60,657 bases of DNA from the IMG/VR virus record IMGVR_UViG_3300012201_000001, positions 1-60,657 of that record. One strand, 5' to 3'. The notes beneath the pieces are model-generated. The model was not told where the DNA came from. It did not search any database and saw nothing but the letters and a program-made list of their open reading frames with translations. The stretch is from a virus. Positions 3,476-58,746 of this stretch are shown here, in pieces. Positions within the stretch are counted from its first letter, which is position 1, and every line of letters begins with the position of its first letter. The position numbers were made by a program, and so were the translations under genes.

Positions 3476-4035
3476 CAGGGTCCCTCCGGATGGCGCGCGG
3501 TCGGGTCGGCCATGCGCGCGAGCTGCTCGTTTGATGCCTTTCGCGCGGCCGCACGTATGCCGCCAACACTGACGGCCCACTCCTCAGGCGTCAGATCGTG
3601 CTTACTGAGATTGCAGTGTTGACAGGCTGGGACCAGGTTCGACGGGGCGTCCGAACCTCCGCGAGTCTTCGGGATGACATGATCGGTCGCGGTCGCTGGG
3701 TCTCCGCAGTAGGTGCAGGTCCCGATGACTCTGGGATTGAGCCTCCGTCGGCGCTGCGCGTCGCGCTCCCGCGCGTCGCCGTATCGGAGCCGAGCAGCCT
3801 CGCTCATCTTGGCCCGTGTCTCTGGGGACCGTTTCTGACCGAGCGGGCCACGGTTGCCGATTTTGGAAGCTGCGATGCGGGCCCTCGTCTGGGCCGAGAG
3901 AACCCGTCCTGCCATCCGAGCTCGACTAGCCGTCCCAATCTTCGCCCGGGTCTCTGCCGAGACAAGGCGGGTTCGATTGCGCAGCGCGATAGCGATCTTT
4001 TGCTCCGGCGTGCAATGGCCTCCCTTAGCTGGCAT
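3475..4035 (-). CDS. HNH homing endonuclease with NUMOD-type repeats (186 aa)
   Basis: The N-terminal part contains repeated NUMOD3-like segments (SAETRAKIGTASRARM, SAQTRARIAASKIGN, SPETRAKMSEAARLRY), the DNA-contacting modules of phage homing endonucleases. The C-terminal part is a canonical HNH nuclease: CTYCGDP, the catalytic TDHVIPKTRGG, then LVPACQHCNLSK. Such enzymes nick or cut a conserved target and spread their own gene. The start chosen is ATG at 4035 (MPAKGGHCTPEQK), 11 bp inside the upstream gene. Confidence 0.85.
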   Translation of the reverse strand: MPAKGGHCTPEQKIAIALRNRTRLVSAETRAKIGTASRARMAGRVLSAQTRARIAASKIGNRGPLGQKRSPETRAKMSEAARLRYGDARERDAQRRRRLNPRVIGTCTYCGDPATATDHVIPKTRGGSDAPSNLVPACQHCNLSKHDLTPEEWAVSVGGIRAAARKASNEQLARMADPTARHPEGP

Positions 4036-6483: not shown

Positions 6484-7242
6484 TTACTTCAGCGCGACCC
6501 ATGCTGAGAAATTCATCCATCGCCAGAACACGTCGACCTCGCGAAAGCCCGCGTCGCGCAGCATGCGCTCGTTCATCGACGGCGGGACCGGGACCTGCAC
6601 GCCCTCCAGCGCCAGCCGCTTGCGGTCGATCTCCTCGCGCGTGTAGCCGTTGGCCGCCTTCATCGCGTGGTAGGTCTCGACCTGGAGCGCCTCCAGCGTC
6701 GCCCCCTCGCCGAGCACCTTCTCCACCAGGACCAGCGCCCCGTCCGGGAGCAAGGCGTCGTAGCACTTGCGGAGGATCCGCTGCCGGTAGTTGATCGGCG
6801 TGAACATCAGCGTCAGCACCGCCTGGACCAGTGACGCCTTGGCGTACGGGAAGTCGGTCCGCAGGTCCGCCTCGTGGAGCTGGATCACGCCCTGGCGGAT
6901 CCAGTCCGCGTAGCGCTCTTGGAATGCCAGCACCATCGGCTCCGAGGTCTCCACGCAGACGTAGCGCACGGTCGCCCCGAAGCGCTTGAGCAGCGGCACG
7001 ATGGCCTCCCCGCGCGAGGTCCCGAGGTCGACCACGTCCGTCCCCGGCTTGACGAACCAGGCCCCGACGTCGAACACCGCCCGGCGCATGACCTCGTACT
7101 GGGGGACGCTCCTCTCCAACATTTCGTCGAAGACATCGGTGACCGCGGCGTTGAATTCCCAGCTCGAGCCCATCGTCTCGTGGATGCCGACGTCGCGCCG
7201 CTCGTCCGGGTCCCTCGCGCGTTCTCCCTGCATGGGGTTCAT
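6484..7242 (-). CDS. CmoA-like carboxy-S-adenosylmethionine synthase / SAM-fold enzyme (252 aa)
   Basis: CmoA converts SAM plus prephenate to carboxy-SAM (CxSAM), used by bacteria for tRNA wobble-uridine modification. This protein follows E. coli CmoA block by block: RSVPQY (CmoA RSVPGY), FVKPGTDVVDLGTSRGEA (FVQPGTQVYDLGCSLGAA), PDGALVLVEK (PGGALVLSEK), KAANGYTREEIDRKR (KRANGYSELEISQKR) and a C-terminal NFSAWVALK (NFGSLVALK). The residue matching the CxSAM-carboxylate-binding Arg199 of E. coli CmoA is present (Arg209, in RKRLALEG). Length is the family norm. The ATG at 7242 overlaps the UDG-like gene by 4 bp, and a DNA cytosine methyltransferase follows upstream in the same unit, so the product may feed DNA rather than tRNA modification. 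An ordinary methyltransferase activity cannot be excluded. Confidence 0.85.
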   Translation of the reverse strand: MNPMQGERARDPDERRDVGIHETMGSSWEFNAAVTDVFDEMLERSVPQYEVMRRAVFDVGAWFVKPGTDVVDLGTSRGEAIVPLLKRFGATVRYVCVETSEPMVLAFQERYADWIRQGVIQLHEADLRTDFPYAKASLVQAVLTLMFTPINYRQRILRKCYDALLPDGALVLVEKVLGEGATLEALQVETYHAMKAANGYTREEIDRKRLALEGVQVPVPPSMNERMLRDAGFREVDVFWRWMNFSAWVALK

Positions 7243-7384
7243 CCTCGCCCTGATCGTGCTTCTGATCGCGCTCGGGACGGCCCTCGGCCTGATCTCGGGC
7301 GCTCACCTGCTGTGGTGGATGATCGCGCTGCTGGCGCTCGCGGTCCTGGTCGGCGGCTGGGCCGCGTTTCCCTGGCGTCGCTGA
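7232..7384 (+). CDS. Small membrane protein, antisense to the UDG-like gene (50 aa)
   Basis: ATG at 7232. The product starts MGFILALIVLLIALGTALGL and continues LLWWMIALLALAVLVGGW, giving two transmembrane helices with a WW pair between them and a basic end. It resembles short hydrophobic proteins (lmo0937-like, with a LWW motif) of Gram-positive bacteria. Nearly every third codon position is G or C, the genome's coding signature, whereas the overlapping minus frame lacks it. No clear ribosome site is seen, so expression is uncertain. If real, it is fully antisense to the UDG-like tail. Confidence 0.5.
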   Translation: MGFILALIVLLIALGTALGLISGAHLLWWMIALLALAVLVGGWAAFPWRR

Positions 7385-7820
7385 GCGCCTCGCGCAGGAA
7401 CCTCTTCGCTCGCCGCACGTTCGCGGCGTCGTTCCACCAGCGGTTGACTCCGGAGGGATGCGGCAGGACCGCGTAGAGCTTGCGCGGCCGATGGCTGAAG
7501 TACCAACAGCACGGCTCCAGCTCGCGCGCGACCGACGCGCCCAGCATCCGCTCGGCGACGCCGCGGCCGACGAAGACGATCATCGCGGAGGCGGCGATCA
7601 GGGACAGGACGCCGTCGTCGATCAGGCGCGGGAACCGGTCGCCCTTCCCGTTCTTGCCAGGCCAGCGGTCGCTCAGGTTAATCCGCAGGGCGCGGGCCCC
7701 GAACGCCTCCTCCGACAAGCCTGAGAGCTCCAGGAGCCTCCGCCCGGACCGGCCGGCCGGGGACAGGGCCGAGGCTGGGTCCGACGTCCTGGAGGGCGCC
7801 TGGCCGACCAGCAGGATCAC
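7239..7820 (-). CDS. Uracil-DNA-glycosylase-like superfamily protein (193 aa)
   Basis: The start is GTG at 7820 (VILLVGQAPSRTSDP), overlapping the methyltransferase stop by 4 bp. GQAPS near the N-terminus, the NLSDRWPG segment and HPSGVNRWWND near residue 140 are the marks of a UDG-fold family seen in phages; the canonical catalytic residues of family 1 UDG are not obvious. The last 45 residues are a low-complexity Arg/Ser/Pro tail whose third codon positions are A/T-rich, unlike the rest, and the opposite strand there carries a better-looking ORF (7232-7384). Its position between CmoA-like and DNA methyltransferase genes suggests a role in recognising or processing modified bases; that is inference. 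Confidence 0.7.
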   Translation of the reverse strand: MILLVGQAPSRTSDPASALSPAGRSGRRLLELSGLSEEAFGARALRINLSDRWPGKNGKGDRFPRLIDDGVLSLIAASAMIVFVGRGVAERMLGASVARELEPCCWYFSHRPRKLYAVLPHPSGVNRWWNDAANVRRAKRFLREALSDARETRPSRRPGPRAPAARSSTTAGERPRSGRGPSRARSEARSGRG

Positions 7821-14640: not shown

Positions 14641-15091
14641 GGATCGCTCCTCTTTGCGTCGGCTCCACGCCGGTCGACGCCCAGCGGTAGCCGCGGCCGC
14701 TCGGGTCAGGCGCCCGCGCCAGGCGCCCCCGCGCCATCGCGTCGGCGACGTTCCGCTGCTGCGTCTGCCACTCCAGGTCGCCGGGGTGGACGCAGAGCGA
14801 GTCGTCGCAGCGGTGAGCTGCGACGTAGACCTTGCCGTCCTCCGGCGGAGGGCCCACCGTCAGCAGCAGGGCGGCGCGGTGGGCGTTGACCAGCCCGACC
14901 TCGACGCTCAGGTGGAAGCGCCCGTAGACGCGGAACGCCTTGACGAGCTTGAGCTTGGGCGGCCGGCTCTTGACCACCGCGCCCATCCAGTGCCAGCAGT
15001 CGTCGTACGGGTCCAGGCGCTCGTCGCACCAAGGACCGTTGACCAGGTTCCAGAACCGCGCCTCGACCGCGCGCGTCATCCTGCTCGCCAT
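14633..15091 (-). CDS. HNH endonuclease, phage homing type (152 aa)
   Basis: RFWNLVNGPWCDERLDPYDD and CWHWMGAVVKS form the N-terminal HNH beta-hairpin found in phage homing nucleases. The catalytic region is AHRCDDSLCVHPGDLEWQTQ, followed by RNVADAMARGRLAR, the usual C-terminal helix. ATG at 15091 shares one base with the nuclease stop upstream. Probably a free-standing homing endonuclease between replication genes. Confidence 0.82.
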   Translation of the reverse strand: MASRMTRAVEARFWNLVNGPWCDERLDPYDDCWHWMGAVVKSRPPKLKLVKAFRVYGRFHLSVEVGLVNAHRAALLLTVGPPPEDGKVYVAAHRCDDSLCVHPGDLEWQTQQRNVADAMARGRLARAPDPSGRGYRWASTGVEPTQRGAIHE

Positions 15092-16503
15092 CAACCCTCC
15101 CGTTCTCCGACGCGACGCGACTTGAAAGCGGGTGGGCCCAGCGTCCAGCGCGCGAGCCCAGCGTCGACCAGCGGCGCCTTCATCTTCGAGGGCACCTTCT
15201 CCTCCGCGATCCCCGGCGGGTACATGACCGCCTCCCCCGCCCAGCCCGCCAGCTTGAGGTGCTGCACGATCTCCAGCGCCCGCGCCTGGTTCGCCCGCCA
15301 CTGCTGCTTGTGCGGGCGCAGGAACCCGACCTCCAGCCCGTTCACGATCAGCGCGTCGCGCTCCTTGAGGAACGCCTGCAGCGCCTCCCGCTGGCCGGCC
15401 GCCATCGCCCTGGTCCGGATCCACCGCTGCGCCAGCTCCAGCGCGCCCTCGGGGTCGAACGGGACCAGGCGCGCCTCCGGCAGCGAGGCGGCGCAGGTCG
15501 TCCGCAGCGCGCAGGTCTCGCAGGCGGCGCACCCGGTCGGCGGCGCGTCCCGCTGCTGCCAGCGCTGCGCCAGCCCGTAGAGCACGCCCCGCCACCATTC
15601 GTCCAGGTCGCCGCGCATGTACGTGATCACCATCGGCTCGCCCCGGTAGCGGATGTGGTCGATCTCCGTCTCCACCTCCTCCAGGGAGCCGCCGAGCTGC
15701 GCGTCGAGGAACGCGAGCTGGGCGTAGAACCGGCGCTGGAACTCGTGCGGGATCACGCGGTGGTCGGACCCGTTCGCGGTCGGCGCCTCATCGTCCAGGG
15801 CGCGCCCCCCGCTCGCCTGCCAGCCGGTCTTGTAGTCGCGGATGCGGACGATCCGCGGCGGGTCATCGAGGTCCTCGCCGTCCATGCGGTCGATGCGGTC
15901 CACGCGGCCGACTAGCCAGCACCAGCCCGCGTCGGCGCGCAGCGTGTGCTCGATGGCGGGCCTGCGCCCGAGGACCAGCAGGCGGTGGGCCTCCAGGAGA
16001 CGCGAGGAGCAGAAGCCCTGCACCAGGTCGACTGCCTCCCCGTAGCGGTTGGGGTCCGCGCCCGGCGCCCGGAAGAACGCCTCGCGCACCAGGCGCTCGA
16101 CCTCCGACAGCATCGACTCCTCGCCCCGCGCCAGGCAGAGCTGCCAGTAGGCGTGGATGGCGTCGTGGATCACGGAGCCGAACTCCGCGTCCGGCGAGTG
16201 CGCGTCCTGGTGCTGCGCGCACTGCAGGAAGTCCTCGACCCACGACCGGCGCAGCTCTGGCCTGCCGTCCTCCGCCAGCGGGACCTCGACGTGGTCGGGC
16301 GTCCAGCGCTCGCGCAGCCTGCGCAGCGCCGCCGGCCCCGTCCGCGGCAGGCGCTTGACGTGGCGCTTCGCGCAGAGGTACGCGGTGTGGCGGTCGGGGT
16401 GCGTGTGCGCGCACATCCAGACCGGGCGCTTGTCGGCCGTGACGAGCGCGTAGTAGCCCCTCCCCGGGGCGGGGACCTTTCGATAGGTCGGTCGCATGGT
16501 CAT
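15091..16503 (-). CDS. RecB/Cas4-type PD-(D/E)XK exonuclease (470 aa)
   Basis: Motifs of the RecB nuclease family are in order: FGSVIHDAIHAYW (about residue 100), GRVDRIDRMDG (about 198-208) and VRIRDYKTGW, the DxK catalytic motif (about 220). A later CAACETCALRTTC gives four Cys that, in Cas4/AddB relatives, hold an iron-sulfur cluster. An N-terminal zinc-like MCAHTHPDRHTAYLCAKRH precedes the fold. The enzyme probably resects DNA ends for phage recombination. ATG at 16503 has an ATGA overlap with the upstream gene. Confidence 0.85.
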   Translation of the reverse strand: MTMRPTYRKVPAPGRGYYALVTADKRPVWMCAHTHPDRHTAYLCAKRHVKRLPRTGPAALRRLRERWTPDHVEVPLAEDGRPELRRSWVEDFLQCAQHQDAHSPDAEFGSVIHDAIHAYWQLCLARGEESMLSEVERLVREAFFRAPGADPNRYGEAVDLVQGFCSSRLLEAHRLLVLGRRPAIEHTLRADAGWCWLVGRVDRIDRMDGEDLDDPPRIVRIRDYKTGWQASGGRALDDEAPTANGSDHRVIPHEFQRRFYAQLAFLDAQLGGSLEEVETEIDHIRYRGEPMVITYMRGDLDEWWRGVLYGLAQRWQQRDAPPTGCAACETCALRTTCAASLPEARLVPFDPEGALELAQRWIRTRAMAAGQREALQAFLKERDALIVNGLEVGFLRPHKQQWRANQARALEIVQHLKLAGWAGEAVMYPPGIAEEKVPSKMKAPLVDAGLARWTLGPPAFKSRRVGEREG

Positions 16504-17065: not shown

Positions 17066-17301
17066 CAGAGGGTCAGCCTCAGCGGGATCGCTGCGATGGC
17101 CGCTGGCGACGGGGAGCGGGTCTCCCGAAGATCATGCTCGAACTCGGCCTGGTCGTCCTCGAGGTGGGCGGCGATCCGCGTGATCACGGCGATCACCGGA
17201 ACCCCGCGCTCCGTCCTGCCCTCCCAGACCCGGCCCGGGACCGAGACGCCGTTGCTGATCAGCTCGACCACGCGGTCCGTGCTCTCGATGGTGATCCTCA
17301 T
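17065..17301 (-). CDS. Small hypothetical protein (78 aa)
   Basis: ATG at 17301 (ATGA overlap with the Gp3-like gene). MRITIESTDRVVELISNGVS and RVWEGRTERGVPVIAVITRI suggest a small beta barrel; the family is reminiscent of phage proteins with VPxRVWEG motifs. Confidence 0.55.
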   Translation of the reverse strand: MRITIESTDRVVELISNGVSVPGRVWEGRTERGVPVIAVITRIAAHLEDDQAEFEHDLRETRSPSPAAIAAIPLRLTL

Positions 17302-18650
17302 GTCGACCCCTCCAACGGCGGCAGGCCGCGCAGCCGCTCGCGCAGCCAGTCGGCGTGCTCCACGCGCAGCTCGGCGAACTTGGAGACCTCGCTCCCCGTC
17401 TCCGCGTTCATCGCCCGGATCGCCGCCCGCAGGCGCTCCAGCGCCTCCCCTCGCCAGGGGTTGGCGACGGAGGAGAACGGACGCCCCGGATCCTCCAGCC
17501 CGCCCGCCAGCTCCTTCAGCTCGTCGAGCTGGGCGCGGACCAGGAAGGGGCCCGGCTCCGAAGGCTCGCCAGGCAGGCCGGGTTCGGCGGAGCGGCCCTC
17601 GGCGGGCTCGCGGGACTCCTGGTCCCCGACCGCCGCCTTGGCCGTCCTAGGGCCTCGCAGGTCCTCCGGCACCAGGTGCTCCGGAAGCAGCCCCGCCACC
17701 GAGTCCACGGTCAGCCCCAGCGGGCTCGCGTTCAGGCGCTTGAGCGTCTCCCGCTGCGGCTCCGAGAGGAAGACCTCGCTGAGCGGGATCGCCGCCCAGC
17801 GCTGGACCTCGCGGACGTCGAAGCGCAGGGCGCAGGTCCAGTGCACCGACTTGACGCCGCGGTAGGTGGTCGTCGCCTTGCGGACCAGGGTCAGCGGCAC
17901 CCCCGCCGTCCGCCCCGCCAGCGAGGCCACCTTGAGGTCGAAGTCTGACTGCAGGTCCTTGATGCTGTTCACCGACCCCGTCGCCAGCTCCATGATCCCC
18001 AGCCACTTGCAGTAGTCCGGGTGCGAGGGGTCGGTCGCCGGGTGGAGCAGGACCGCGCGCAGGATCGCCACCGCCTTGCACGACGCGTCGGGGTCGTGAT
18101 CGGCCGCCAGCATCTGCTTGGTCTTGCTCGGGTCCTGCGGGTCCGGCTGCTCGGTCAGGTGCAGGTACTTCGGGCAGTCGCGGCCCCAGCAGCGCACGCG
18201 GTAGCGCGCCTGGCCGGAGGTCGAGGGCAGCGGCTCCGCGGCCTGGCCGGTCGCCCTCTCGATCCGCACCGCCCATGCCTCCTCGGTCGTGACCGCGTAG
18301 TCCGGCGACTCCGCGCTGTAGCCGTGGCCCTTGCACTTGAGGCCGCGCTGGCTGCCGTAGGCGCGGTTGTTGAGGTTGAACACCAGCTCGTCGCCGTCGC
18401 GGGTCTTGGCGTCCCATTCCTGGTAGAGCATCATCCGCAGCGCCTTGGGCTCGTGGCCGTAGATCTCCTGCACGTCCTCGGGCGCCTCGTCGAGGACGAA
18501 GTAGTCCGTCTCCGTCGGGTAGGTGCCGCGCATCGGCTCGGAGCGCGCGGCGCGCGTCCTGCCCGCGGCGGTGTTCCTGACGCGGACGCCGAGCCGGACC
18601 CGAAAATCACGACCAATCCTTCTGGCCTCGGACAACTCTGCGATCGGCAT
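17298..18650 (-). CDS. Gp3-like (recombination-directionality-factor-like) protein (450 aa)
   Basis: The segment RVRLGVRV...TDYFVLDEAPEDVQEIYG, then RGLKCKGHGY and CPKYLHL, followed by GSVNSIKDLQSDFDL and AGVPLTLVRK, follows the order of the Gp3-like family. The family name comes from the phiC31 excision factor, but most members lie in replication modules and bind zinc. No integrase is present here, so a replication or recombination role is more likely than excision. The ATG at 18650 has AGGAGG nine bases upstream. Codons 4-16 use AT-ending synonymous choices unlike the rest, and the first 14 residues are duplicated at the start of the adjoining HNH gene (see findings). Confidence 0.65.
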   Translation of the reverse strand: MPIAELSEARRIGRDFRVRLGVRVRNTAAGRTRAARSEPMRGTYPTETDYFVLDEAPEDVQEIYGHEPKALRMMLYQEWDAKTRDGDELVFNLNNRAYGSQRGLKCKGHGYSAESPDYAVTTEEAWAVRIERATGQAAEPLPSTSGQARYRVRCWGRDCPKYLHLTEQPDPQDPSKTKQMLAADHDPDASCKAVAILRAVLLHPATDPSHPDYCKWLGIMELATGSVNSIKDLQSDFDLKVASLAGRTAGVPLTLVRKATTTYRGVKSVHWTCALRFDVREVQRWAAIPLSEVFLSEPQRETLKRLNASPLGLTVDSVAGLLPEHLVPEDLRGPRTAKAAVGDQESREPAEGRSAEPGLPGEPSEPGPFLVRAQLDELKELAGGLEDPGRPFSSVANPWRGEALERLRAAIRAMNAETGSEVSKFAELRVEHADWLRERLRGLPPLEGST

Positions 18651-19111
18651 CAGGCCGCCCTCCTGCGAACTCGGTAGCTTAGGCGACAGGTCCGGCACGA
18701 GCGATAACCGCGCCTGTCGACGTAGGTGTTCGTCTCGTCATAGGGATGCCCGCGGGGGCAATGCGTCCTGCTGAGATAGCGGGCTACGAGGACGTCCGGC
18801 CCCGGGCCACGCAGCACGTTCTCCCGGCGAGTGACGGGCTCTATGTGAAGCGGATTCACGCACCATCGATGTCGGCAGAGATGGTCAGCTTCTCGCCCTG
18901 CAGGGAACGCCCCGATCATCTCCTGATAGAGAACTCGATGAACTAGCTGCAGACTGCAGCCGAAACTGACCGTTGCATAGCCAGCGCTCTGATGGCCGCC
19001 GCTCCATTCCCAGCAGCCGAAGCTTGTCGGGCGGACTCTGGAGAGAATCGAGTCGACCGTGTTTCGAAAACGGCCTACGCGGCGCGCCTCGCTCAGCTCT
19101 GCGATGGGCAT
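18650..19111 (-). CDS. HNH homing endonuclease fused to the native start of the Gp3-like gene (153 aa)
   Basis: The first residues MPIAELSEARRVGR are the same, but for one Ile/Val, as those of the following gene. They are in the genome's usual GC-rich codons, while the neighbour's copy is recoded. After them comes a standard HNH endonuclease: FGCWEWSGGHQSAGYATVSF, then EADHLCRHRWCVNPLHIEPV and RRENVLRG, then a CPRGHPY...CRTC zinc tail. The stop shares one base with the next ATG (TGATG). The start at 19111 has an AAAGGAG ribosome site. It looks like a homing gene that captured the start of its target and brought a replacement start. Confidence 0.88.
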   Translation of the reverse strand: MPIAELSEARRVGRFRNTVDSILSRVRPTSFGCWEWSGGHQSAGYATVSFGCSLQLVHRVLYQEMIGAFPAGREADHLCRHRWCVNPLHIEPVTRRENVLRGPGPDVLVARYLSRTHCPRGHPYDETNTYVDRRGYRSCRTCRLSYRVRRRAA

Positions 19112-19179: not shown

Positions 19180-20325
19180 CTAGCTCTCGACTGATGGTTG
19201 GTATTCCTCCTTCGACATGCCGAATGTCCACGCGACTGCGCTTGCGCAATCCCGCAGGCCTGGATCGACTCTTATCAAATAGTTTTTCCAGGTCCCATCC
19301 GGCTCCTCGGTGCTATTCGTGACCTCGACAGCTACCAACGCCTCATCGTTAGGTTGCTCAACACGTAGCAGGCGGCGTCGCTTGCCGAGTTGGTCCTTGT
19401 CCTCGTGCACGATCTTGGCGTCGACTTCGGCCATGAAGCGATCCACGCCCATACGCTCAAGCATCACTCGGCGGACTTCGACGTTCGGCTCCTCAGTCAC
19501 GTGCTTGGCCGTAATCCAGTCCGGCCGGACGACCACGAAAGCCGGGACCATCACGCCATGCCAGAAATAGAGGTTCTCGATGTCCGACTCAAGGGCCGCG
19601 TACTTCTGGTGATGTAGACGGCGCATCCCGAGACGGTCGTCGCGCTCCACACTCACCTTCGGCTTCGCCACCCAGTAGAGCGTGTCGTCGGTCCAGTAGA
19701 GGAGCCATGCGCCAGCGACAAAGGCCTCAAACAGGGGTTTCGCCCAGCGATCGACCACCGGCTTACCGAGTTGGTCCGCACCGAAATGAGTCGTGACGAT
19801 CCACGACAGGTCCCAGCCGTACCACCACCACACTTGCAAACACCAGGCGGCGAACCTCTGCATCGACTCGCGGGCGTCGCGGGCGTCGAGGGCGTCGCGG
19901 GCGACGAGGGCGGCGCGGGCGACGCGGGCGGCGCGGGCGTCGAGGGCGTCGCGGGCGTCGCGGGCGTCGCGGGCGGCGAGGGCGTCGCGGGCGGCGAGGG
20001 CGGCGCGGGCGACGCGGGCGGCGCGGGCGGCGCGGGCGTCGAGGGCGTCGCGGGCGTCGCGGGCGTCGCGGGCGTCGAGGGCGGCGCGGGCGTCGCGGGC
20101 GGCGCGGGCGGCAGGCGACCGCTTGAACCATTCATCGAGAATGCTGTTCACGCTTCGCAATAGCGCAGGCTCCTCGTGGACCGACCAGCCCGGTCCTAGG
20201 CGTCGAACCTGCCGCTTGATACCCAAGGCGCTCAGGTAGCGAGCCAGGTGCCGCTCTACCCCAGCCTCATTGAGAGAGCTGGGGTAGTCACATGCGGCCT
20301 CGTAACGCTGTCGGTCAGTCGCCAC
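19180..20325 (-). CDS. DUF6745-like protein with Ala/Arg/Asp repeat domain (381 aa)
   Basis: The C-terminal half has the DUF6745 signature: FWHGVMVPAFVVVRPDWITA, VRRVMLERMGVDRFMAEV, NSTEEPDGTWKNYLIRVDP and AVAWTFGMSKEEYQPSVES. The domain is of unknown function and is often paired in bacteria with the protein encoded just upstream. Residues about 72-154 are an ARD/ARA tripeptide-type repeat (19866-20111) made of 9-bp units; all six frames are open there. GTG start at 20325 overlaps the upstream TAG by one base. Confidence 0.8.
   Translation of the reverse strand: MATDRQRYEAACDYPSSLNEAGVERHLARYLSALGIKRQVRRLGPGWSVHEEPALLRSVNSILDEWFKRSPAARAARDARAALDARDARDARDALDARAARAARVARAALAARDALAARDARDARDALDARAARVARAALVARDALDARDARESMQRFAAWCLQVWWWYGWDLSWIVTTHFGADQLGKPVVDRWAKPLFEAFVAGAWLLYWTDDTLYWVAKPKVSVERDDRLGMRRLHHQKYAALESDIENLYFWHGVMVPAFVVVRPDWITAKHVTEEPNVEVRRVMLERMGVDRFMAEVDAKIVHEDKDQLGKRRRLLRVEQPNDEALVAVEVTNSTEEPDGTWKNYLIRVDPGLRDCASAVAWTFGMSKEEYQPSVES
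19866..20111. repeat. Degenerate GC-rich 3/9-bp repeat encoding (A-R-[AD])n
   Basis: A run of about 245 bp made of variants of gcgggcgtc, gagggcgtc, gcgggcgac and gcgggcggc. It is a coding repeat in the DUF6745-like gene and could change length by replication slippage. Confidence 0.8.
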
Positions 20326-30579: not shown

Positions 30580-31692
30580 CTACGGCTGGTAGGGGACGAG
30601 CCCCCAGAGCGCAGCGTGGGAGCCGTTGATGATGTTCCCGGGCGCAAGGAAGAGGTCGAGCCTGGTCACCGGGGTGCCAACCACTCGCGTCTTGCCTCCC
30701 CAGATGCCTTCCTGCTGGGTTCCGGTCGTGTCCGCGCTCATGTAGCCGTAGCGGCTGGTGAGGAGCTTGTTTCCGACCGCTCCCGCGTACATCGCCAGCT
30801 TCGCATCTCCCTGCCCAAAGTAGCCTGCGATAGCGGTGGCAGCAGGAATGACTCCCAGCGAGATACCAGTCGCAGCCAAGGCTTCAGCTGCTGCCACCGC
30901 AGACGCTGCGCCGTTCAGGTTCTGGCTGTCATAGGTTGCGGTGGAAACATTATTCAACCGAGCTCGCAGCTCGGCCGTGACAGCTGAGGAGTCACCGCGC
31001 ATGTACCACTCAATGCCGAGGTTACGGAAGCCAGGTGGGATCAAGTTCGTAGTGCCACCAGTCGAGTTGAGGAAGGTAATCAAGGCTGTCGCTGCCGGAT
31101 AGCGGGAGTCGGTGCCGACCAGGATCTCATCTAGCAACACTGGCTGCGCTCCAGCAGGAGCGCGCCGGTCGGTGATGACTGTTTGCGGAATAGTCGAGGT
31201 CGCGTGGACGATCGAGAGCTGGGCCAGGATCAGCGAGTTGGCCGGCGCGGCGGGCACCGCCGGCGACCCCGACGGCGTGCCGGTCACCATCTCTATCGTC
31301 GGCAGGTCCAGGGAGCCGGAGTAGAACTGGTCCTGGTAGCGTGCGACCGCCAGGTCGATGCGGTCCAGGGTCGCGTGCGCGGGGTTGGGGCCGAGGACGT
31401 TGATGTCCAGCGTCGCGTCGTTGTAGAGGTGATACATGCCCTGCGTCGCCGCCTGCGTTCCGCGCACGAAGCAGGCGCCCGCCACGACGTGCACGAAGCC
31501 GTCCGGGGTCCCGGTCGCGTTGACCTTCAGGTCCTGGCAGGTGCCGCGCGTGTAGACCACGCCCTGCCGGAAGCTGAGCGAGGCGTCGAGCGTCCGGCGG
31601 AACGCCGCCGCGGAGGTGCGCAGCTTGTTCGCCTCCACGTCGGTCGCCGGGCCCTGCGCCATCCACATCTCAGGCGCGACGAGAACGGTCAT
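30580..31692 (-). CDS. Minor tail protein, possible receptor-binding (370 aa)
   Basis: The N-terminal 165 residues (GVVYTRGTCQDLKVNATGTP, VHVVAGACFVRGTQ, LDRIDLAVARYQDQFYSGSL) resemble the conserved shaft domain of actinophage minor tail proteins. From about residue 170 the codons become less GC-rich, and a Ser/Ala/Thr-rich C-terminal domain follows (ARLNNVSTATYDSQNLNG). This is the profile of an exchanged receptor-binding tip. Confidence 0.7.
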   Translation of the reverse strand: MTVLVAPEMWMAQGPATDVEANKLRTSAAAFRRTLDASLSFRQGVVYTRGTCQDLKVNATGTPDGFVHVVAGACFVRGTQAATQGMYHLYNDATLDINVLGPNPAHATLDRIDLAVARYQDQFYSGSLDLPTIEMVTGTPSGSPAVPAAPANSLILAQLSIVHATSTIPQTVITDRRAPAGAQPVLLDEILVGTDSRYPAATALITFLNSTGGTTNLIPPGFRNLGIEWYMRGDSSAVTAELRARLNNVSTATYDSQNLNGAASAVAAAEALAATGISLGVIPAATAIAGYFGQGDAKLAMYAGAVGNKLLTSRYGYMSADTTGTQQEGIWGGKTRVVGTPVTRLDLFLAPGNIINGSHAALWGLVPYQP

Positions 31693-50296: not shown

Positions 50297-51397
50297 TCAG
50301 CGCGGCCCTGGCTTGCCGACCGACGCGAAGAAGCCAGGGGCCGGCGGCGCCTGCTGGAACGTCAGCAGCCACGACTCGCTGCTCTCGCTGATCGTGCTCG
50401 TCAGCACCCCGCGCGGGCTGGCCTGCGTCCCGGCCAGGATCTGGTGCTGGCCGCTGGCGTGCGCGTTGACCGTGCTGTTGATGCCGTCGTACTGCGTGCC
50501 CACCGTCCAGCCCGTGGTCGGGACCGAGTTGGTGGTGTCCGTCGAGAGCGTGCCCGCCGCGCTCCGCTGCACGCCCACCAGCTCGAGGAGCAGGTCGCCC
50601 GCCTGCGTGGTCCCCGAGGCGGCGGTGCTGTCCAGGCTCGTGCTCGCCGAGGCGCCGGTGGCGTTGTTGACCACCGTCAGGTCGAGCGGTCCCGCGCCCG
50701 CGACGCCGCTGAACTCGTAGATCGTGTAGGCCCAGCCCAGCGCCGCCCCGCCGCCGCCGATGGTGATGTTCCAGGTCCAGGACTGGGAGCCGCCCGGGTT
50801 GCTCGCCATGTAGTACGCCCGCGAGCCGCCGTTGGGCGCGCCGTTGTTCTTGGTCGCCAGCGGCGCCGTCCAGCCGGTCGGGACGTCGATGGTGGTCGAG
50901 GCCCCGGCCCCGCTGTAGGAGGAACTCGCCAGCGCGACCAGCAGGCTCCCCGCCGTGAAGCTGACCGCGGTCGATGTGAACGATGTCTGCCCGTCGACCG
51001 TCGAAGCACCGCCGACCTGCTGTACGAAGAGGATCATCGCCGCGCCTGTGATGGCCAGGGCCAGGCTCCAGCCGTGTCGTCGATAGGCGGCGCGGCGGCG
51101 CGGGTTGGTCGCCCACTCGTACCAGCGCCCACCGATGCGAGTCACCATCTCTAATCGGCGCTTGCGTTTCTTCTGGCTCTTGCGCGGGCGCAGCTCTCGG
51201 TGCTTGAGCGCGTTCTCGGCCAGGTGCTCGAGCTCGCCGACGCGAAGTTGCGCGTCAGCCCAGCGCACCAGCTCGGCCCAACTAAGGCGGCTCAGCTCCT
51301 CGACGAGCCGGTTCAGCCTCGGGTCTGCGTTGCGGCCAATCTCCTTGCCTTTGACGCCGCCGCGACCGGCGAGCCACGCCAGCAGGCCCCCAAGCAT
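50297..51397 (-). CDS. Hypothetical protein with TM segment and beta-rich domain (366 aa)
   Basis: An N-terminal helical, basic region (KHRELRPRKSQKKRKRRLEM) is followed by a hydrophobic SLALAITGAAMILFVQ segment and a long beta-rich domain (TAVSFTAGSLLVALASSSYS, TWNITIGGGGAALGWAYTIY). It ends in PGFFASVGKPGPR, similar to a motif of the repetitive protein at 47766-48992. Could be two fused parts; no family recognised. Confidence 0.5.
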   Translation of the reverse strand: MLGGLLAWLAGRGGVKGKEIGRNADPRLNRLVEELSRLSWAELVRWADAQLRVGELEHLAENALKHRELRPRKSQKKRKRRLEMVTRIGGRWYEWATNPRRRAAYRRHGWSLALAITGAAMILFVQQVGGASTVDGQTSFTSTAVSFTAGSLLVALASSSYSGAGASTTIDVPTGWTAPLATKNNGAPNGGSRAYYMASNPGGSQSWTWNITIGGGGAALGWAYTIYEFSGVAGAGPLDLTVVNNATGASASTSLDSTAASGTTQAGDLLLELVGVQRSAAGTLSTDTTNSVPTTGWTVGTQYDGINSTVNAHASGQHQILAGTQASPRGVLTSTISESSESWLLTFQQAPPAPGFFASVGKPGPR

Positions 51398-51754
51398 CTA
51401 GTCATCGACCTCGATCCACTGCTGCAGCGTCAGCGAGGCTCCAGCTCCCACGTTGGACGTGACTCGATACATCCCGCCGGGATCGACCGGGAAGACGAAG
51501 ACCTGACGCGCCGTCAGCAGGACGCCAGCGGCCAAGCCAGCAACCGACTCCGAGAGAAACGTGGCGCCGCCGAGTACAGTGCGATAACCCGCCATCGCCT
51601 GCCCGCCCGCGGCCGCAGCGCAGACGACGGAGACGATGACTAGGCGTCGAAAAGGGCCGTTGATGTAGTCGGTATCGAGCGCGCGGTTGATCGTCTGATC
51701 GGTCGCCGAGTAGCTGCTCCGGCGGTCGCTGATGTTGCCAAGAGGTACAGCCAC
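51398..51754 (-). CDS. Hypothetical protein (118 aa)
   Basis: MAVPLGNISDRRSSYSATDQ, then a hydrophobic VIVSVVCAAAAGGQAMAG segment and a beta ending (SLTLQQWIEVDD). Codons are less GC-rich than neighbours. Unassigned. Confidence 0.5.
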   Translation of the reverse strand: MAVPLGNISDRRSSYSATDQTINRALDTDYINGPFRRLVIVSVVCAAAAGGQAMAGYRTVLGGATFLSESVAGLAAGVLLTARQVFVFPVDPGGMYRVTSNVGAGASLTLQQWIEVDD

Positions 51755-51755
51755 A

Positions 51756-52487
51756 CTAATTCATTGCCACAACCCAAACGTCACGCAGGGTGATCGAGCC
51801 TGTCGCTACCGTGGGAGTGACCGTGAGCGTCAGCGTCTTGGCCACGGTGCCGTCGAGTGAGGCCACGTTGGCCACCGCCGTGCCCCCACCTGGCATCCAC
51901 TTGGCCTTATCTGAGGCCAGCGATGCGTCGCTGTTCGCCAGGCCCACAACGCCATGCGCGAGCAACGTCAGAGACGTCGCTAATGGACCGGTGGCCAGTG
52001 CCTTGAGCCAGAGGTCGATCGTGAACAGGTTGTCAGTCACTGCCACCGGATCGGGGATGATCGCACCGCTGGCGACGATCAGGGTGTCGCCGACGACGCC
52101 AGTGCCGTATCGGAGCCGGAAGGTGAGGGTGCCTGGCGTGGTGACGACGTTGGACTCCTTGCCCATGCCGTGCAACCAGAGACACTTGCCGGGGAAGCTG
52201 AAGAAGTTGGCGGGCAGGGTGAGGATTGTCGCCTGCGACAGGATTGTCTCTGCTGCCGCTGTGACCGCCACCGCGTCGTTGACCGCCCACGGCTGCATCA
52301 TCTCGAACATCGCATAGGCGCCGCCCTCGATCGCAGGCAGGATGCCGTTGCGTTTCATCCAGCGCGCACGTTTCTCAGCTGGCCAGGCCCGAATGTGTTC
52401 AGGCAGCAGGATGCGGTTGGCGTCGAGATCGTAGCCCGCGATGAGGCGCGGCCCACTGCCGCCGATCGGGAACATCTTAGGGTCCAT
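51756..52487 (-). CDS. Hypothetical structural protein (243 aa)
   Basis: Starts MDPKMFPIGGSGPRLIAGYD, with ILLPEHIRAWPAEKRARWMK and a jelly-roll-like C-terminal part rich in Thr/Val (TLTLTVTPTVATGSITLRDV). ATG at 52487 has a GGAGG seven bases upstream, inside the HNH gene end. Codons are less GC-rich than the genome norm. Confidence 0.55.
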   Translation of the reverse strand: MDPKMFPIGGSGPRLIAGYDLDANRILLPEHIRAWPAEKRARWMKRNGILPAIEGGAYAMFEMMQPWAVNDAVAVTAAAETILSQATILTLPANFFSFPGKCLWLHGMGKESNVVTTPGTLTFRLRYGTGVVGDTLIVASGAIIPDPVAVTDNLFTIDLWLKALATGPLATSLTLLAHGVVGLANSDASLASDKAKWMPGGGTAVANVASLDGTVAKTLTLTVTPTVATGSITLRDVWVVAMN

Positions 52488-52914
52488 CGCTGCCTCCTAA
52501 AACGCGGGGGATTATGTCGTGAGATCCGCAATTCGCGCAGACAAGCTCAATACCTTTGCCATGGCTACCCAGGCGTACCTGTAGATTCTCAGGGCGGTTG
52601 TCCATCTTGTTTCCGTTGAGATGATGGACCGTTTCTTCCGCAAGCAGCCGCCGGCCCAGGACTTGCTCCACAACCCAGCGATGCTCTAAAACACGACCCA
52701 TCCGATCTGCACCGGGAGTGCCCTTGGCAACCATGATTCGGATATAGCCGCCAGAGGTTTTAGTCCGATTCCCGATTGCATGCAATGTACGAGCAAGGGC
52801 CCGCTTTTGGATTGCCTCGGCTGTATGTGGACCGTGCCAGCCTCTGCCTGTGCCTCGATAGAGCCCTCGCTTCATACGAGATTGACGCATTCTTTCCGCA
52901 CCTGTCATTCCCAT
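52477..52914 (-). CDS. HNH homing endonuclease in the structural region (145 aa)
   Basis: RMGRVLEHRWVVEQVLGRRL, then EETVHHLNGNKMDNRPENLQ and VRLGSHGKGIELVCANCGSH, the HNH_3 type with the HHLNGNKxDNRxENL core. The ATG at 52914 shares a base with the stop of the preceding structural gene. That gene's last 46 codons or so are strongly recoded (see findings). It is a probable homing endonuclease that targets the conserved end of that gene. Confidence 0.88.
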   Translation of the reverse strand: MGMTGAERMRQSRMKRGLYRGTGRGWHGPHTAEAIQKRALARTLHAIGNRTKTSGGYIRIMVAKGTPGADRMGRVLEHRWVVEQVLGRRLLAEETVHHLNGNKMDNRPENLQVRLGSHGKGIELVCANCGSHDIIPRVLGGSDGP

Positions 52915-53507
52915 CAACTCTGGGTCAGGGTTGAGGTAAGTTGCCAACTCGCCGCCGATGTTTTTGTTCCTAAGTTCACGACTGAACGGTTCAGCATGGT
53001 GCCTGAACCGTCGGCGACTGCGTTGAAGATCGCCCATTCGTTCCACTGAAAGTTCGCGTCGCCCGTCGCGAACGTGGACCGGAAGGTGACCACGTTGGCC
53101 GCCCGCGAGGGGAAGGTGGCGTCCATCGCCTTGCGGATGCGGTCGGTCACGTTGACCGCGCCCTGGAGGTTGGTTTGCCCGAGGGCGAACGCGGCCGACG
53201 AATCGCCCACCCCCAGCGCGGCGTTGGCGTTGTTGTAAGCGGTGATGCCTGCCCCGATCAGCCCGTCGAGCATGATCGCCGTGCCGCCGTTGACCAGGGT
53301 GTTGAAGCCCAGCTTTTCGAGGAGCGGTTGGATGCCGAAGCGGGCAAGGATCAGCCGCCCGCGTCGCTCGAGCTCCAGGCCCTTGATCCCCTTCGCGATC
53401 AGGTCCTCCTCGACCGCGAACTTTCGCTCCAGGTCCTCCGGCCGCCAGGCGGTGGCGACCGCGCGCCCGAACAGCCGACCCGGCGCCATCGTAGCGGCGG
53501 CGCTCAC
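52914..53507 (-). CDS. Conserved tail or head structural protein (197 aa)
   Basis: The C-terminal half holds VVTFRSTFATGDANFQWNEW and IFNAVADGSGTMLNRSVVNL, GTKTSAASWQLTSTLT, a pattern common in phage structural proteins. The N-terminal half is helical (EDLERKFAVEEDLIAKGIKG). From about residue 152 the codons switch to TTA, TCA, GGA, ACA, AAA and AGT, which the genome otherwise avoids. Confidence 0.65.
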   Translation of the reverse strand: MSAAATMAPGRLFGRAVATAWRPEDLERKFAVEEDLIAKGIKGLELERRGRLILARFGIQPLLEKLGFNTLVNGGTAIMLDGLIGAGITAYNNANAALGVGDSSAAFALGQTNLQGAVNVTDRIRKAMDATFPSRAANVVTFRSTFATGDANFQWNEWAIFNAVADGSGTMLNRSVVNLGTKTSAASWQLTSTLTQS

Positions 53508-58233: not shown

Positions 58234-58746
58234 TCACGCGACGTTGAACGGCCGGGCCTTTTTTTGCTGCACGCGCGCGAGCGAAACTGGCAGCGGGTGT
58301 CGGCGGCTGGGCTCGAACACGCGCGCACCCCTCCCCCCCCGGTCCCTCGTCCCCGCAGCGCCGACCTCGGCCGCGTTGCAGGCGCGGCAGGCGACCATGA
58401 GGTTGACCCTGGCGCTGGTCCCTCCCGCGGAGAGGGGAACGATGTGGTGGACGGTCAGTTCCTCCGCCACGTGGGCGCTCCGGCCCGCCAGCCCTGGACA
58501 CCAGCCGCCGAAGAGGGCTCGCCACTCGGCCACCATCTGCCGGGCCAGCGCTTGGTACTCGGCGTCGTAGCCTCGCTCGGTTGGGGTTCCTCGCGCCTGC
58601 TCCAGCTCAGCCTGATGCTCGGGGCAGCGGCTCCCCTCGGCCGGCCTCCCGCACACGATGCATTGCTTTCGATGAGTCGGGCGGGGCGATCTCGCTTGAC
58701 CTCCCCGCTCCTCGCTCTCCCTGCTAGGCGCCTTCGGTGCCGCCAC
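58234..58746 (-). CDS. HNH endonuclease of the packaging module (170 aa)
   Basis: CIVCGRPAEGSRCPEHQ (zinc site), then LTVHHIVPLSAGGTSARVNL and MVACRACNAAEVG, the HNH motif with catalytic His pair. A nuclease beside the small terminase is typical of cos phages (HK97 gp74-like) and assists genome cleavage. A GTG start at 58746 gives the full zinc site. Confidence 0.85.
   Translation of the reverse strand: MAAPKAPSRESEERGGQARSPRPTHRKQCIVCGRPAEGSRCPEHQAELEQARGTPTERGYDAEYQALARQMVAEWRALFGGWCPGLAGRSAHVAEELTVHHIVPLSAGGTSARVNLMVACRACNAAEVGAAGTRDRGGRGARVFEPSRRHPLPVSLARVQQKKARPFNVA

Follow-up and report, generated by a model that had tools for sequence, protein, structure and literature searches.

A phage HNH endonuclease gene and the diverged gene end beside it as a putative homing element, with candidate counterparts in other tailed phages

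Free-standing nucleases must spare the genomes that carry them, even though the nuclease gene need not interrupt the nuclease's target site. How this might be accomplished is a question raised by one locus of an IMG/VR virus record of 60,657 bp (here ‘the window’, i.e., the whole stretch of DNA analysed). At this locus a small structural gene, gene A, changes its codon usage well ahead of its stop codon, and that stop codon overlaps the start of a gene for an HNH endonuclease, HNH2. Does the altered end of A belong to the gene in which it is found, that is, or did it instead arrive along with the nuclease gene? The features involved are as follows.

52914-53507, minus strand: gene A, encoding a small tail-type structural protein of 197 aa
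53052-53507, minus strand: native 5' part of A, codons 1-152 (GC3 137/148)
52914-53051, minus strand: putatively replaced 3' end of A, codons 153-197 plus stop (GC3 24/41)
53022-53045, minus strand: A codons 155-162 (WNEWAIFN), a 24-nt identity among the window and the relatives L002 and L003
52477-52914, minus strand: HNH2 gene, a free-standing HNH endonuclease gene encoding 145 aa (GC3 67/136)
51756-52487, minus strand: gene B, downstream of HNH2 and within a segment of GC3 0.79
50977-52482, minus strand: block of intermediate GC3 (0.79), consisting of B, C and D codons 1-141, with an abrupt end inside D

Gene A matches phrog_23653, of unknown function (E 2.1e-32), and its phage relatives carry annotations as hypothetical proteins or minor tail proteins. 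HNH2 matches phrog_20891, HNH endonuclease (E 1.3e-25), with HNH_3 as its sole Pfam match (E 4.9e-9, above the cut-off of that family). An earlier, sequence-only reading had described a TGATG overlap of the A stop with the HNH2 start, which is located at 52916-52912, and the HNH2 stop in turn overlaps the start of gene B. A GTG-started, 189-aa frame at 52477-53046 in the ORF list was rejected as an upstream read-through of HNH2 into A. HNH2 lies outside of any intron, as A is one intact ORF that ends at the HNH2 start. With A intact, and with no Rfam family reaching its gathering score in the window, and so no known group I or group II intron, an intron reading was dropped. No relative carrying HNH2 itself was found.

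The change in codons had been placed after about residue 152 of A, and the computed change point is codon 153. Particularly, GC3, in counts that leave out ATG and TGG, falls from 0.93 (137/148) over codons 1-152 to 0.59 (24/41) over codons 153-197 (Fisher p = 9.8e-7). Penalised (BIC) segmentation over eight genes, i.e., portal, a 110-aa gene, A, HNH, B, C, D and E, yields four GC3 segments. The first, of 0.96, extends up to A codon 152, the second, of 0.51, runs from A codon 153 (nt 53051) to HNH2 codon 144 (nt 52485), the third, of 0.79, covers B, C and D codons 1-141, and the fourth, of 0.96, takes in the rest. The A tail and HNH2 are indistinguishable in composition (p = 0.7). A difference in GC3 exists between the tail, counted from codon 163, and both the A body (p = 7.7e-7) and B (p = 0.0037), with HNH2 also differing from B (p = 4.4e-9). 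As the A tail thus is like HNH2 and unlike both the A body and B, tail and HNH2 can be taken as a single unit.

That this step is a matter of chance or of local codon-usage variation within A, unrelated to the HNH gene, is barely credible. Such a view can point to GC3 steps not being rare in this genome, as A ranks 7th among the 87 called genes by change-point likelihood. The low-GC3 unit has its other boundary at the HNH/B junction, however, its A portion matches the HNH gene in composition, and association tests over other phages, as given below, are significant without the window. In terms of the size of its tail drop (-0.37), A is second among the 68 genes of at least 80 codons, behind a called gene at 7239-7820. 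The latter, in which GC3 goes down to 0.38 from codon 157 over a repetitive, arginine-rich tail, probably is a frameshift or a miscalled frame. Strong GC3 change points are seen as well within 30580-31692 (0.96 to 0.70) and 19180-20151 (0.96 to 0.72). There is no HNH_3 or HNH match beside 30580-31692, and the gene at 19180-20325 contains a long run of ARAARDARDA-like repeats.

Relatives of A without an HNH neighbor allow the end of the gene to be viewed in its unaltered context. Among these are L002 (79% identity), L003 (62%) and L004 (61%), which are the same contigs as L017-L019, and in all three the site following A is empty, with no HNH gene found there by motif scan plus tblastn. Motif scanning found no HNH gene near A in 70 IMG/VR relatives, and a scan of genome contigs with A gave four loci at which tblastn with HNH queries found no HNH gene. 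Over those 70 relatives plus the four genome loci, tblastn returned a single weak HNH match, in L050 (E 5e-4). In HNH-free A genes, GC3 over the last 45 codons is about equal to that of the rest. The largest drop among 58 distinct such genes is -0.24, in a moderately GC-rich gene, versus the -0.37 of the window, and in L002 the GC3 of A is 0.89 over the last 46 codons versus 0.83 before. The sequence-only reading had named homologues sharing the altered codons as the outcome that would count against it. What the HNH-free homologues display instead are body-like 3' codons, with no drop comparable to that of the window.

Codons 155-162 of A, situated at the junction, form its longest stretch of DNA that L002 and L003 both match exactly, and positions 53022-53045 may be viewed, on sequence grounds, as a candidate crossover or target region. 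GAA157, which had been included among the altered codons, is not recoded, the same codon being present in two HNH-free relatives. As codons 155-162 are identical in L002 and L003, true divergence may start, indeed, only at about codon 163. Same-residue codons identical to those of L002 number 20/37 over codons 111-152 and 15/34 over codons 153-197; with synonymous identity low on both sides of the junction, the A tail is best called a diverged homologous end. A test for sequence incongruence of the tail gave a weak result (nt p = 0.012 and 0.037, aa not significant) that is confounded by GC. As for the earlier claim of a synonymous replacement, the end indeed has changed but not purely synonymously, since 38 of 45 tail residues match L002. 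The amino-acid changes in the swapped end argue for the import of a homologous end over a strictly synonymous replacement. The stretch from 53051 to 52477 probably represents, as judged from these features, a homing element, that is, a free-standing HNH gene along with the adjacent 3' end of its target gene, the latter originating from a diverged homologue.

The neighborhood downstream of HNH2 can suggest something else, namely that a block of about 2 kb (A tail, HNH, B, C and the start of D) was acquired from a lower-GC phage through homologous recombination, the HNH gene having been a passenger. GC3 from B to D codon 141 is 0.79, against 0.96 beyond, and so resembles the 0.66-0.85 of L002 genes. 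In addition, B is only 30% identical to its L002 counterpart (over 177 aa) versus 79% for A. As a sufficient account, such a module exchange nevertheless is rather unlikely. The A tail and HNH constitute a separate step of 0.51 that is distinct from B, tail shifts across loci are predicted by HNH adjacency, and plain exchange would not yield the displaced fragments of sister loci that are considered below. Module exchange and homing can both hold, as homing drags flanks along, and the difference between B and A in identity to L002, together with the adjoining 1.5-kb intermediate block, makes a wider exchange around the element likely too. Possibly, that is, the block at 50977-52482 came in together with the element or around it.

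An HNH gene of this type follows immediately after an A-family gene in L194, L185, L255, L224 and L210 as well. A total of 77 A ORFs was found, from which the dropping of identical ones and of those of fewer than 100 codons left 6 that have an HNH gene and 58 that lack one, L050 having been left out of the former set due to its weak HNH match. The mean GC3 shift of the last 12 codons is -0.28 in the 6 genes with an HNH neighbor versus 0.00 in the 58 without (MWU p = 2.6e-4). Excluding the window and comparing with 29 GC-rich HNH-free A genes gives p = 0.0015. Over 45 codons, the shift differs between A genes with and without an HNH gene at p = 0.003, becoming marginal (0.05) with the window excluded. 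The shift in these other A-HNH pairs falls mostly within about the last 12 codons and is strongest in the last 8-12. As it fades over 45 codons elsewhere, the replaced stretch of the window appears to be unusually long.

Short shifts beside an overlapping start could be due, in part, to the HNH initiation region. By extension, ribosome binding for the HNH gene might take place within the end of A, which as such would have been selected for being A/T-rich, with nothing imported, and the concentration of the shift within the last 8-12 codons of A-HNH pairs is as that would predict. For the window, this explanation seems very improbable. An initiation region usually is shorter than 135 nt, whereas the shift here spans 45 codons, i.e., those 135 nt. 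HNH-free A genes are without the shift even though L002, L003 and L004 also have a frame starting close behind A, and start selection is unable to create displaced native ends.

The association of tail shifts with HNH genes was surveyed over 202 clusters of HNH loci, as merged from distinct loci. Upstream tails adjacent to HNH genes move toward HNH GC3 by a mean of 0.073 (127 genes, 17 above 0.2), versus 0.025 for the tails of other genes (643 genes, 32 above 0.2). The difference is significant both with the window (p = 2e-5) and without it (p = 1e-4). A looser comparison (102 adjacent, 710 other, p 4.6e-9) has been superseded by this stricter, clustered one. Shifts at the starts of genes were left unused, as gene starts tend to be of low GC3 and some are miscalled inside the HNH gene. 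The two largest tail shifts are those of gene A of the window and of a gene in L170 (810-2547) that, from its sequence, appears to be terminase-like. In the latter, which stands beside an HNH1-type gene, tail GC3 is 0.45 versus 0.87 for the body; no displaced end was found at L170.

A 5' mirror of the HNH2 arrangement had been proposed for 18.6 kb, and it is real: a native start is fused to a second HNH gene of the window, HNH1, and a re-spelled copy opens the gene that follows.

18650-19111, minus strand: HNH1 gene (Pfam HNH_3, E 5.5e-9)
19070-19111, minus strand: displaced native start of the RDF-like gene, which is the first 14 codons of HNH1
18609-18650, minus strand: replacement 5' end of the RDF-like gene, 14 codons
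17298-18650, minus strand: RDF-like gene (Gp3-like/RDF-like, Pfam E 1.6e-16)

HNH1 opens, that is, with what are apparently the start codon native to the next gene, along with its ribosome-binding region and its first 14 codons. Its ORF begins with the native MPIAELSEARRVGR and the RDF-like gene begins with the re-spelled MPIAELSEARRIGR, the replacement differing from the native copy in 12/42 nt and 1/14 residues. Segmentation places the GC3 change point of the RDF-like gene at codon 16/17. For the proteins of 15091-16503 and 17298-18650, HNH-free homologues were found neither in viral contigs nor, for the latter, in phages. Which of the two copies is native thus is judged by location and by what the remainder of the gene looks like. 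The HNH_3-like gene at about 14.6 kb has a GC3 of 0.92 and no change point, and so is not counted as end-replacing.

Displacement of this sort was looked for in other phages as a second copy of the end of an HNH-neighboring gene, located across the HNH gene. Pairs taken from different loci, with similar GC, served as the null. The HNH gene was located in 266 loci, of which 211 remained after dropping identical ones, with 193 testable for 5' ends and 205 for 3' ends. For 5' ends the scores are 66 (window, 18.6 kb), 66 (L156) and 61 (L137), against a null maximum of 57 among 5457. For 3' ends they are 77 (L155) and 67 (L217), against a null maximum of 64 among 5575. All five displaced-end loci, in other words, score above every cross-locus null. 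On the four contigs besides the window, these loci are positioned as follows.

L155, 2048-2830: 3' form
L217, 1619-2779: 3' form
L137, 2465-2975: 5' form
L156, 2318-2940: 5' form

In L217 a tail gene, related to mycobacteriophage hypothetical and minor tail proteins, ends in DTLTISAGALSASVTLAS, and the GC-rich TLTIAAGALTASVTLAS, with a stop of its own, is present just past the HNH gene, where it overlaps a start of the next frame. The corresponding ends in L155 are IIDWQVFKELIEGSDYE and IIDWEVFKELIRDSDYE, with IIDWEVFKELIRDSDYE overlapping the GTG of the next gene, and the target in this case is related to annotated phage Holliday junction resolvases. A phage homologue of the gene behind the L137 element was sought, and none was found. 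Over the five native/replacement pairs, third positions differ in 51/78 cases versus 34/156 for first plus second positions (p = 1.8e-10). Differences mainly at third positions indicate a separately selected homologue rather than a decaying duplicate, and ‘recoded’, the term employed by the sequence-only reading, is for the same reason better read as ‘replaced by a diverged homologue’.

Two additional 5' candidates look real by eye, L159 (score 52; 2135-2189 and 2838-2901) and L164 (score 50; 2440-2476 and 2913-2949). Both are below the null maximum, at a null p of about 0.001-0.002, and they stand outside of the five counted. L127, scoring 91, was rejected as an antisense reading of seemingly related tail domains located at a distance of about 550 bp past the HNH gene, and matches in L125, L168 and similar loci were set aside as low-complexity.

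A displaced native 3' remnant also had been suggested as something to be found downstream of HNH2. It is absent, the anchored test giving a score of 40 (null p 0.074). A tblastn search of three A tails against the window returned A itself as the only significant one among the matches listed.

With tail and HNH2 viewed as a homing element, events might proceed in the following manner. In a mixed infection, the HNH protein would cut an HNH-free A near the conserved 3' coding region. The break would be repaired from the HNH-bearing genome, with crossing over perhaps occurring in the conserved stretch at about codons 153-162. It is within this stretch that the composition changes and that the 24-nt identity is found. 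The recipient would thereby gain the HNH gene along with the donor's diverged A tail, and A would stay whole, as is consistent with the intact ORF seen in the window. The diverged tail presumably would mismatch the recognition site, leaving the new carrier protected. In sister elements, the old gene end would be pushed past the HNH gene, and a short fragment overlapping the next start is what is present in L155 and L217. The 5' versions would act likewise at gene starts, as the arrangements at 18.6 kb and in L137 and L156 suggest, and at the 52.5-kb site the old gene end would have gone.

The sequence-only reading had spoken of a general strategy, and recurrence in other phage contigs along with the tail shifts give the idea good support from independent loci, but the HNH gene at about 14.6 kb shows nothing of the kind. 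With somewhat better than even confidence, it can be suggested that gene-end-replacing homing elements, a class as yet without a name, are widespread in tailed phages. In these a free-standing HNH gene would be accompanied by a re-spelled 5' or 3' target end as a resistance cassette. Insertion would be flush, the target would remain whole, and the old end would be displaced as a short fragment, perhaps still of use to the start of the next gene. The stretch at 52.5-53.05 kb would then be a mature member minus its fragment and that at 18.6 kb a 5' member retaining it.

Similar arrangements are known from elsewhere. In the yeasts Torulaspora and Lachancea, each homing of a WHO element gives FBA1 a new 3' end, which has been proposed to be resistant, and a fragment of the displaced 3' end is left past the endonuclease gene (Coughlan et al. 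2020, PMC7282813). As there, the window has an endonuclease gene beside a full-length target with a diverged donor 3' end. The displaced 3' fragment of WHO elements is matched in L155 and L217, though not at 52.5 kb. WHO elements are yeast nuclear and employ an HO/intein-type nuclease with a zinc-finger domain, their target is FBA1, and their cleavage has been shown by experiment. The phage elements, by contrast, have an HNH_3 nuclease, various targets and a 5' form too, and have been identified by sequence. By analogy, the 52.5-kb element can be seen as working like WHO elements but as standing outside of the WHO family, given its other nuclease and the lack here of a displaced end.

Fungal mitochondrial mobile ORFs (mORFs) likewise bring foreign C-termini, i.e., to atp6 in Allomyces and to atp6, atp9, cox2 and nad3 in Glomus (PMC3630166). 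The likeness is in an in-frame foreign C-terminus with mostly synonymous differences, followed by an endonuclease ORF and a displaced native end, whereas the enzymes there are LAGLIDADG or GIY-YIG and the setting is mitochondria. Among phages, free-standing homing endonucleases of T4-like phages co-convert DNA flanking their targets, as seen with intronless homing and marker exclusion (PMC2988022), and a recipient is assumed to be resistant once donor sequence replaces its site (PMC12724721). Shared with those systems are the free-standing phage nuclease gene and, on the reading proposed here, flanking co-conversion and a recipient made resistant by replacement of its site. T4 sites, however, are described as being hundreds or thousands of bp away from the nuclease gene (PMC2988022), and the available portions of the T4-like literature describe no displaced gene-end fragment flush with a nuclease gene. 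On this comparison, the phage element would be an extension of known co-conversion by phage homing endonucleases. HEG-islands, which are found at exchange boundaries, have at least two nuclease genes bracketing them (Barth et al. 2023, PMC10448857). As with these, a nuclease gene here is present where relatedness to L002 drops, from A to B, but the unit as described here consists of one nuclease gene plus a gene end. Phage end replacement with a displaced fragment is undescribed in the accessible parts of the literature found, which includes PMC2248197 and lies mostly outside of subscription papers.

If this interpretation is correct, then carrying one's own resistant target end would be a phage answer to the problem of self-cleavage, as has been proposed for the yeast WHO elements, and convergent evolution of a single trick with unrelated nucleases would be indicated. 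Mosaic ends of conserved phage genes (tail, terminase-like in L170, Holliday-junction-resolvase-like in L155) would be explained, as would the short pieces of genes found duplicated next to HNH genes, and cleavage regions would become predictable from sequence. The native/replacement pair at 18.6 kb makes the idea testable directly in vitro.

Other HNH_3 or HNH matches in the window are at 14.7, 18.8, 3.6 and 58.4 kb. Two of these are matches to PF01844 HNH, at 3595-3717 and 58369-58482, both on the minus strand, with the 58.4-kb match about 5.5 kb from HNH2 and the portal gene in between.
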